Source: Methanobacteriota archaeon
GTDB taxonomy: Archaea; Halobacteriota; Methanosarcinia; Methanosarcinales; Methanosarcinaceae
Reading direction: 5' to 3'
NCBI GenBank assembly: GCA_016841625.1
Contig: JAENYU010000002.1
Location: forward strand, 72,491-118,420
DNA length: 45,930 bases
Position 1 is the first letter of the stretch. The number at the start of each line of letters is the position of its first letter. Position numbers and translations under genes: made by a program. The notes under the pieces were generated by a model that saw only the letters and a list, made by a program, of their open reading frames with translations, did no database searches and was not told where the DNA came from. Positions 35,819-40,034 of this stretch are shown piece after piece.

Positions 35819-35903
35819 CGACGAGAGGGGGATTCGAACCCCCGAGATGCGAAGCATCACAGGATTAGCAATCCTGCGCCATACCGGGCTTGGCTATCTC
35901 GTC
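35819..35903 (-). tRNA. tRNA-Ser (anticodon GCT)
   Basis: On the minus strand the acceptor GACGAGA pairs with TCTCGTC, the anticodon stem-loop is AGGATT-GCT-AATCCT, a long serine-type variable arm follows (GATGCTTCGCATC), and the T arm contains GGTTCGAATCC. The discriminator is G and CCA is not encoded. There is no intron. A TATA-like TTAAATATCT lies about 40 bp upstream. Confidence 0.96.
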
Positions 35904-36059
35904 ATTCAGGTTGTAGAAGACGCGTTTTCCTTAGATGCATTTCAGATATTTAACCTTTTCCGGGAAAAAACAGTTTGCAAAAACTGGATCTCCACTTCAC
36001 ACACGGAGTTTTGTTTTTATGTTGAAAGTTTTGAAGGGAACCGATTCAAGTTGTTTAGT

Positions 36060-36372
36060 GATGAGCACGCCGCAGGTCGATATACCTCGGAGATCCCAGG
36101 GGACTGGCACCTCTCCTCCACCTCGCGACCCCGCAAGCGATAGTTGCCCACGGTAAGTCTGCTCCCTTCCGGGCCTCGACCGGTTTCCACAGTTAAGGTA
36201 GGAAGACCTGTTCTCCAGCAAGCCCTCAAACCAGCACCATCCAAGCAGGACGGGGCTTCTCAGTTGAGATCCCAGGCTCGAATCTCTTCGATAAACCTTC
36301 CATTGGCTTCGTCCCCCGCGTATCGGCGATTTCGGGTTACAGGTAACGCCGGGCTACCCGGACTAGCTCATC
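36060..36372 (-). ncRNA. Archaeal 7S (SRP) RNA
   Basis: The RNA is read on the minus strand. The conserved helix-8 motif GGCCCGGAAGGGAGCAGAC near 36155-36175, the GGGTAGCCCGG / TGTAACCCGAAA Alu-side motifs near 36320-36355, and GGGATCTC repeats fit archaeal SRP RNA of about 310 nt. The ends were set by the terminal helix GATGAGC (36372-36366) with GCTCATC (36066-36060). A TATA-like TTTATAAATTAC lies about 25 bp upstream. It is the scaffold for SRP19 and SRP54. Confidence 0.93.
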
Positions 36373-36785
36373 AACCATACAACACGCTAGTAATTTATAA
36401 AAGTATCCCTACTGATGTGCATTTTTTTCCGACATGCGAGCAGGACATCTCATATCTCCCGGCCCTCCGGAGAAAAATTAAGAGCCTATAAAACCCCCTT
36501 TTCAAAATTGTGAATTCAAAAAAGGGAATTATAAATCGGGGTCCCCGTAAAAGCCCCCTTTCCCGAAAAAAAATGTTTTTTTGAGTTCAAAAATATATAA
36601 AAAGAACTATAATTGCCCCTACGTATTTATACGTCGATTTACAAAGTAATACACATCAATAGATCTCAGACGACTGATGGATCTTAAACGACTACAAAAG
36701 ACCGATAAGTGTCAAGCGACTTACGGAAAATACTTACGTAACACACCGGGAAACCGGAAAAAGTTAGATTGACGGGGGGAATTTT
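36373..36785. promoter_or_regulatory. Divergent spacer: 7S RNA promoter and ramA upstream region
   Basis: The left part has the minus-strand 7S RNA promoter. Rightward, AAAATATATAAAAAG (36590-36602) is a strong TATA box, giving a start near 36621 and a leader of about 165 nt. At that point lies a perfect palindrome ACGTA-TTTA-TACGT (36621-36634). Further on are direct repeats GATCTxAxACGACT (36662, 36680) and ACTTACG (36719, 36732). Confidence 0.55.
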
Positions 36786-38534: not shown

Positions 38535-38760
38535 ACACACCTAAAACCTTTCCGCTTAATTCAGAAACAAAACAGAAAGTGGACGTGTGTTGGGAAAAGA
38601 AGAGAAAAATGAGCATTACATAAAAGAATTGAGATCATGAGCCATAAAAGAAATAGAAATTATTCAAGAATACCGTTCAAACCAGATGACAAAAACATAC
38701 CAAATTTAAAGAAATGTTGGGACTATTGAGGAGTATTGGGTGGTTGTGCGCATATTCAGC

Positions 38761-38793
38761 ACAAAATATATAAACAAGCTCATCATAGGAAAT
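38761..38793 (+). promoter_or_regulatory. Promoter of ncRNA copy 1
   Basis: CACAAAATATATAAAC (TATA centre about 38769) sits 25-27 bp before the 5' arm of the closing stem. TGGTTGTG lies at about 38740. Both blocks recur in front of copy 2. Confidence 0.6.
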
Positions 38794-38794
38794 T

Positions 38795-38908
38795 ATTGAG
38801 GCATCTAATCCACTTTCACACCGTAAATCATCTACCACATTTTGCCCAAATAGACCTTTTAAAGTTACGCAACGCCTTTATTTAGGTGCCTCAATATACC
38901 CATTTTTA
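38795..38908 (+). ncRNA. Structured small RNA, copy 1
   Basis: An 11-bp closing stem TTGAGGCATCT (38796-38806) with AGGTGCCTCAA (38884-38894, one G-U) encloses about 77 nt. TATACCCATTTTT follows as a T-run terminator. The interior is C-rich and G-poor near the 5' side (TAATCCACTTTCACACCG) and has GTTACGCAACGCCTTT near the 3' side, both conserved in copy 2. No reading frame is present. The position directly after a TATA box and the conserved end make an independent transcript likely. I do not recognise a named family; a base-pairing regulatory sRNA is a guess. Confidence 0.7.
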
Positions 38909-39513
38909 AGCAACGCTTTTTGGGGTGGTAATTCATTATATATAAAGTGGTATATTTTGTTTACAAATAAAAATTGAGTAAGCTATCCGTCTTTTTTTAA
39001 AGTACCACACATAAATAGCACCCCTGAGCTAGAAAGAACATTGAAACCCAGACATATACAAACAGATAACTAACTCTAAAGAACTAAATACGTCTCTTTT
39101 TCATGCTGAACCCTGTCAGGGCAGAAGGCAGGGCATATTAATACTACAGGGGAAAAACTGCCCACATGTATGTGAAACTATTTCAAGCCTGCAAAACGGG
39201 TTCAAACCCTGCAAAACGGATTCAGGCCCTACATGTAAAAAGAAAAAGCAAAGAATTCCTGCAGCTTTACGGGGTCCCCCCTAAAAAATCCGGGGGAAAA
39301 CCCAAAGAAGTAACAAAGAGGGGAGAAAAAAGTAAAAAATGAGGACAGATTAGAATTGAAGGGCGGAATAGTAAGAAAAAACAGAAAAAAAGGAGAAACG
39401 TTGAGATTGGAAGAGCATTAGTGAGAATAAAAAGCAAATAGTGTGAACGTAGGAAGAAGAATAAGAAAATGAGTGAGAATAGTTTTGGATGGTTGTGTAC
39501 AGAACGAACACAA

Positions 39514-39542
39514 AGTATATATGCAACTTTCACATAGGAATT
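39514..39542 (+). promoter_or_regulatory. Promoter of ncRNA copy 2
   Basis: CACAAAGTATATATGC (TATA centre about 39518) lies 25 bp before the stem. TGGATGGTTGTG precedes it at 39486-39497, as in copy 1. The 38909-39513 gap is AT-rich and purine-rich, with no credible gene. Confidence 0.6.
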
Positions 39543-39654
39543 GCTGAGGCATCTAATCCACTTTCACACCGTAATTAATCTACCACATCTAAGCCCAAAT
39601 ATACCTTTTTAAGTTACGCAACGCCTTTAAGATGCCTCAATATACCCATTTTTA
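39543..39654 (+). ncRNA. Structured small RNA, copy 2
   Basis: This is homologous to the element at 38795 over its whole length. The stem TGAGGCATCT (39545-39554) with AGATGCCTCA (39630-39639) has a T-A pair where copy 1 has T-G. The 22-nt block from GAGGCATC to CACACCG is identical, as are ATCTACCACA, GCCCAAATA and AAGTTACGCAACGCCTTT. Small length changes fall in the loop next to the 3' arm. TATACCCATTTTT follows, as in copy 1. Both copies and their promoters are conserved while the surrounding spacer is not. Confidence 0.7.
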
Positions 39655-39900
39655 TGAAGACGAGATGAGGATAAGAATCGTCATATACAAACATTTATAT
39701 TCATAATTCTAGATATAAATGGAGAAGAGGATATCCCACATAATTTAAGGCAAGAAACTGCCGTTAATGCACACATTATCACAGAAAAGCCCTGAAATGT
39801 ACAGCCCGCTGAATTGACAGGGAAAAAAGAGAGAGACAAAAAGTAAAAAGTGCCCCGTAGAAGGTAAAAAAGAAGGAAAAGGGGTAAAAACTTTTTTTTG

Positions 39901-39995
39901 GATTTTTTGAATTGTTTTGGGTTTTTTGAATTGTTTTGGATTTTTTGAATTGTTTTGGGTTTTTTGGCTTGTCCAGGATTTTTTGGCTTGTCCAG
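39901..39995. repeat. 19-bp tandem repeat, 5 copies
   Basis: Units of the form GRTTTTTTGAATTGTTTTG (three copies) and GRTTTTTTGGCTTGTCCAG (two copies) run without gaps, so there are two sub-types of one 19-bp unit. The array lies just beyond the 3' end of purB. On the purB strand a T-rich stretch (about 40033-40021) between array and stop may serve as terminator. Confidence 0.9.
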
Positions 39996-40034
39996 GATCT
40001 TTGGATTTAAATTGGGAGAGGAAAAGAAAAAAGG

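Follow-up and report, generated by a model that had tools for sequence, protein, structure and literature searches.

The analysed stretch of DNA (hereafter the window, 45,930 nucleotides) contains, in the spacer between the convergent genes for RamA (TIGR04270, 865 bits) and PurB (TIGR00928, 531 bits), two elements of ~105 nt that lie 748 bp apart, copy A at 38794-38908 and copy B at 39543-39654 (Table 1). A sequence-only reading of this DNA had described two ~110-nt elements ~750 bp apart, and these are real: blastn within the window aligns the two copies at 90.3% identity over 113 nt (E 5.7e-39), with gapless blocks that are 92-95% identical. As that reading also held, each copy is preceded by its own TATA box, with the closing stem beginning ~20-24 bp 3' of it in both copies, and the common 3' tail ATATACCCATTTTT was found as well. 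The surroundings of the two convergent genes show further features, as the 3' end of purB is adjoined by tandem ~19-bp repeats (TTTTTTGAATTGTTTTGGR, window 39893-40002), and minus-strand tRNA and archaeal SRP RNA genes stand immediately upstream of ramA (window 35819-35903 and 36059-36373), in an order that is the same in genomes G074 and G083.

Table 1. Features of the twin elements in the ramA-purB spacer (window coordinates)
Feature	Position	Strand	Sequence or remark
Upstream element, copy A	38734..38752	+	TATTGGGTGGTTGTGCGCA; family consensus TTTTGGRYGGTTGTGNNCA
TATA box, copy A	38767..38774	+	TATATAAA
Putative small RNA, copy A	38794..38896	+	closing stem 38794-38808 / 38882-38896, ~73-nt loop
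Copy A tail, likely U-rich 3' end	38897..38908	+	TACCCATTTTTA; termination predicted from sequence
Upstream element, copy B	39483..39501	+	TTTTGGATGGTTGTGTACA; without counterpart in g13 B copies
TATA box, copy B	39516..39523	+	TATATATG
Putative small RNA, copy B	39543..39642	+	closing stem 39545-39554 / 39630-39639, ~75-nt loop
Copy B tail, likely U-rich 3' end	39640..39653	+	ATATACCCATTTTT; termination likewise predicted
AT-rich palindrome-like element 3' of copy B	39685..39700	.	TACAAACATTTATA; family form TATAAATATTTATA

The proposed closing stem is borne out in both copies, with 10 pairs in copy B and 15 in copy A, the latter comprising 14 Watson-Crick pairs and one U-G. Compared with dinucleotide shuffles, folding energies are low for copy A (-21.5 kcal/mol, z -4.6) and copy B (-16.3 kcal/mol, z -3.5), and z-scores among the copies tested range from -3.5 to -6.5. 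The stem encloses a G-poor loop of ~75 nt without strong inner structure; two possible inner hairpins are paired in 77-85% of cells, with no support beyond shuffles. The compatible stem change noticed between the two copies recurs among the 31 homologues described below, since 26 copies have U-A at stem pair 11-97, four (the A copies of the window's genus, g1) have U-G and one (the B copy of G008) has C-G, and this is the strongest single covariation signal. Over the structure as a whole, however, covariation does not exceed that of column shuffles, 104 of 500 of which reached the score, because the stem and the sequence hardly vary.

A DNA search followed by a covariance model, as the sequence-only reading had suggested, was carried out over 186 genomes of the order and identified 31 copies in 16 genomes from three Methanosarcinaceae genera, namely all four genomes of g1, 10 of the 31 of g13 (Methanosarcina) and two of g4, with no copy in other genera or outside the ramA-purB spacer. 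Two copies share one spacer in 14 genomes; in G008 one copy lies at a contig end and the other at the start of the next contig beside purB, which fits a single pair split by the assembly, while in G007 one copy was detected. The pair lies between ramA and purB in every genome whose assembly includes the flanks. In g13 genomes without the pair, ramA and purB are still convergent where both are present, with a spacer of 93-494 bp as compared to 1.3-2.0 kb in carriers. Two such genomes retain relics, as in G075 a copy survives as its upstream element plus TATA box (nhmmer E 5.6e-5) and in G085 another as its 3' half (E 0.013), and therefore the pair is ancestral and was subsequently lost. The covariance-model search of Rfam 15 matched no family at gathering or relaxed thresholds.

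Conservation is concentrated in the RNA part. The 31 copies hardly vary in the stem and in the loop blocks TCTAATCCACTTTCACACC, ATCTACCACAT and GCCCAAAT, and the core diverges by ~16% between g1 and g13 whether the same copy (0.160) or the other copy (0.159) is compared, as against 0.375 (same copy) and 0.448 (other copy) for the upstream 90 nt and 0.55 and 0.63, respectively, for the downstream 110 nt. A core divergence of 16% with flanks at 38-63% therefore reveals selection on the RNA part. Since copy identity is kept by the flanks and not by the cores, the two copies deserve the earlier designation of siblings, and their cores are held together by a strong common constraint, by gene conversion or by both. 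The spacer between the copies had been considered not conserved, which is correct for the comparison of copy A with copy B and does not extend to the same-genus genome G001, with which the spacer aligns at ~79%; outside the window's genus, only the elements and short flanks are alignable.

Two additional conserved parts go beyond the earlier description. The upstream element TTTTGGRYGGTTGTGNNCA has mismatch-free matches solely before these RNA genes in the six genomes searched, and is retained by most A copies and by the g1 B copies but not by the g13 B copies, and hence copies A and B probably differ in their regulation. Downstream, most of the 31 copies have the palindrome TATAAATATTTATA or a near form of it at 42-62 nt from the stem (e.g. 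L087), an element that could be an antisense promoter reading back through the RNA, a termination site or a protein-binding site. Presence of this palindrome-like AT element after most copies would also suit a regulatory or mobile DNA element in place of an RNA gene. This explanation we regard as very improbable, because the constraint spans the region from the expected start site to the end of the stem, the TATA box is at a fixed spacing (30-31 nt 5' of the stem GAGGC in nearly all copies), the copies are confined to the ramA-purB spacer, and the viral contigs of IMG/VR contain no match to the twin elements.

Another explanation to be weighed is a leaderless small mRNA for a histidine-rich peptide of ~21 residues ((M/L)RHLIHFHTVNHLPHLAQIDF), possibly as part of a dual-function RNA. 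An ATG, TTG or GTG is located at the expected transcription start in 28 of 31 copies, the frame runs on for 15 codons or more in every copy, and a leaderless 20-aa ORF has been reported for the M. mazei sRNA154 (PMC11456600). However, the frame is shifted in G000 B, G082 A, G083 B, G007 and G008, the start codon is gone in G080 B, G000 B and G099 A, the position of the stop drifts from 15 to 57 codons, and the TTG of the A copies doubles as stem sequence. Variable sites are distributed about evenly over the codon positions (3:2:4) without favouring the third, and hence neither the frame-keeping nor the codon-position bias of a small-protein gene is found. Judged from these patterns, constraint at the RNA level appears to fit the data better than a peptide gene, which we consider improbable. 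The mobile-element or coding match that could have spoken against RNA genes thus did not emerge, the viral collection giving no match and the codon signal being absent. With 31 homologues in the same spacer, promoters that are kept, a U-A/U-G/C-G pair and no Rfam, viral or convincing coding explanation, the earlier proposal of twin structured RNA genes is well supported, and we hold it very probable that the elements are RNA genes.

From these features we infer that each copy is transcribed from its own TATA promoter, as tandem intergenic genes giving rise to RNAs of about 105-120 nt. Pairing of the 5' and 3' ends over 10-15 bp would protect the RNA ends and at the same time present the G-poor, nearly invariant loop of ~75 nt, mostly in single-stranded form. 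Its segments UCCACUUUCACACC and UCAUCUACCACAUC may base-pair in trans with mRNA, which is the most likely mode of action, and equal cores behind different upstream regions would allow one RNA activity to answer two signals. As in intergenic trans-acting sRNAs, each copy has its own promoter between convergent genes and a conserved stable non-coding fold, with weak covariation. Overall, we favour, with some reserve, duplicated RNA genes under separate promoters acting by base pairing in trans.

Concerning the targets, it had been suggested that the loop could pair with purine-rich ribosome sites, and this could not be upheld. When the loops were compared with ~100 start regions, the mean energy equalled that of shuffled loops (0.33 of shuffles were as low), which lends no support to a general anti-ribosome-site role, and no signal above shuffles was obtained for start regions, ACDS starts or mmcA. 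Complements of the first loop block, searched genome-wide, amount to a few scattered sites near control numbers. Near-matches to the complement of the second loop block exceed those of the reversed pattern, many of them being coding codons. A partial complement of the second block recurs in the mtrE leader of four species, and this candidate was discarded since a similar site is also present in genomes without the twin. Independently of the twin, the mtr operon has, ~130 nt before mtrE, a long and strongly conserved leader (L209-L236), in which 28 genomes share the inverted repeat CGTCATCATCATT ... AATGATRTGGCAGACG, and which is a possible structured leader. A text search of 5.4 million papers did not find the loop sequence. 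The lack of an mRNA target signal above shuffles, together with a long loop that is invariant and lacks strong inner structure, and with two copies per genome, is equally what would be expected if the conserved C/A/U-rich loop sequestered an RNA-binding protein, as a protein-binding, decoy or sponge RNA predicts the same picture as a trans-pairing sRNA. A repeated binding motif was, however, not identified in the loop, and sequestration seems to us an unlikely function. To our knowledge, targets have been established for very few archaeal sRNAs. The twin RNA is strongly conserved, duplicated and present in genetically tractable methanogens, and is thus directly testable.

The best single target candidate, without statistical support, is the start of the mmcA-rnf mRNA, whose translation the twin RNA might tune by start-region pairing as a member of the Rnf/MmcA electron-transport regulon. 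In a comparison of g1, g4 and g13 genomes, the pair or a copy is present in all 14 rnfC-positive genomes and in only two of 23 rnfC-negative ones (G082 and G099), of which G082 has low-scoring copies and G099 (an assembly 79% complete) has a ruined copy-A promoter; two more of the 23 retain the relics described above. G099 also carries a ramA gene disrupted by a large internal deletion (L092 5140-5780). A three-protein tree indicates that Rnf was lost about twice, with decay of the RNA in both groups. Between -14 and codon 11, the mmcA start region hardly varies among 14 genomes, synonymous changes appearing only from codon 12, and its AUGUGGU is complementary to ACCACAU of the loop, with AUGA/UCAU and GGUGU/ACACC being collinear. 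Against this, the Fisher p of 2e-8 for the association of rnfC with the twin ignores kinship. Rnf-negative lineages make up 59% of the tree length, so that two or three losses falling there have p about 0.35 or 0.21, and, with about two Rnf losses, the association loses its significance when phylogeny is taken into account. Furthermore, Rnf occurs without the twin RNA in other genera, and the mmcA duplex energy is no better than with column-shuffled loops (0.26-0.44). The co-distribution is thus a lead and not a proof; membership of the twin in this regulon we rate as unlikely, and the full model, in which translation of the multihaem cytochrome-Rnf operon is gated by two separately promoted sRNAs and loss of Rnf is always followed by decay of the pair, as improbable. 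If the link were true, the electron-transport branch by which Rnf-dependent methanogens differ from hydrogen-based ones would be under post-transcriptional control. As an observation on its own, the mmcA start AGAATGTGGTCRTTATGAATAGGTTAAATCTGNTGGTGTCGGGAGTCGC (L238-L251; L239 about 1522-1570) is nearly invariant across three genera and lacks a canonical Shine-Dalgarno sequence, and from its sequence looks like a site of RNA-level control.

Among known sRNAs, the closest are sRNA162/sRNA171, sRNA154 and sRNA41 of M. mazei. Like the twin, sRNA162 and sRNA171 are intergenic homologous duplicates in the same archaeal family. They contain three stem-loops with a 39-nt linker, map to MM2440-MM2442, are present in M. 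barkeri and are duplicated only in M. mazei (PMC3510493), whereas the twin has one closing stem, resides in the ramA-purB spacer and has both copies ancestral to three genera. Identity with them is excluded by the single closing stem and by the lack of the twin in 21 of 31 g13 genomes, taken to include the barkeri group. The sRNA154 of M. mazei is likewise intergenic, ~130 nt in length with its reported leaderless short ORF, and its locus, flanked by MM3337 and MM3338, has an NrpR operator (PMC3177094). Its primer sequences are published (PMC11549558), and the best primer match in the twin region has 9 mismatches in 21, which rejects identity; the NrpR operator GGTA-N6-TACC was not found upstream of any twin copy. 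The third intergenic M. mazei RNA, sRNA41, is reported to mask several ribosome-binding sites, with ACDS operons as its targets (PMC5867862). Twin loops show no preference for ACDS loci (mean -16.2 kcal/mol versus -18.3 kcal/mol for others in a simple duplex model), and hence identity with sRNA41, set apart here by its described targets and not by sequence, is disfavoured. The M. mazei transcriptome survey of 2009 yielded 208 sRNA candidates according to a review (PMC3600222), and the twin may figure among these. Thus, with sRNA162/171 and sRNA154 excluded and sRNA41 disfavoured, the twin elements represent a new, uncatalogued pair of putative intergenic sRNAs.
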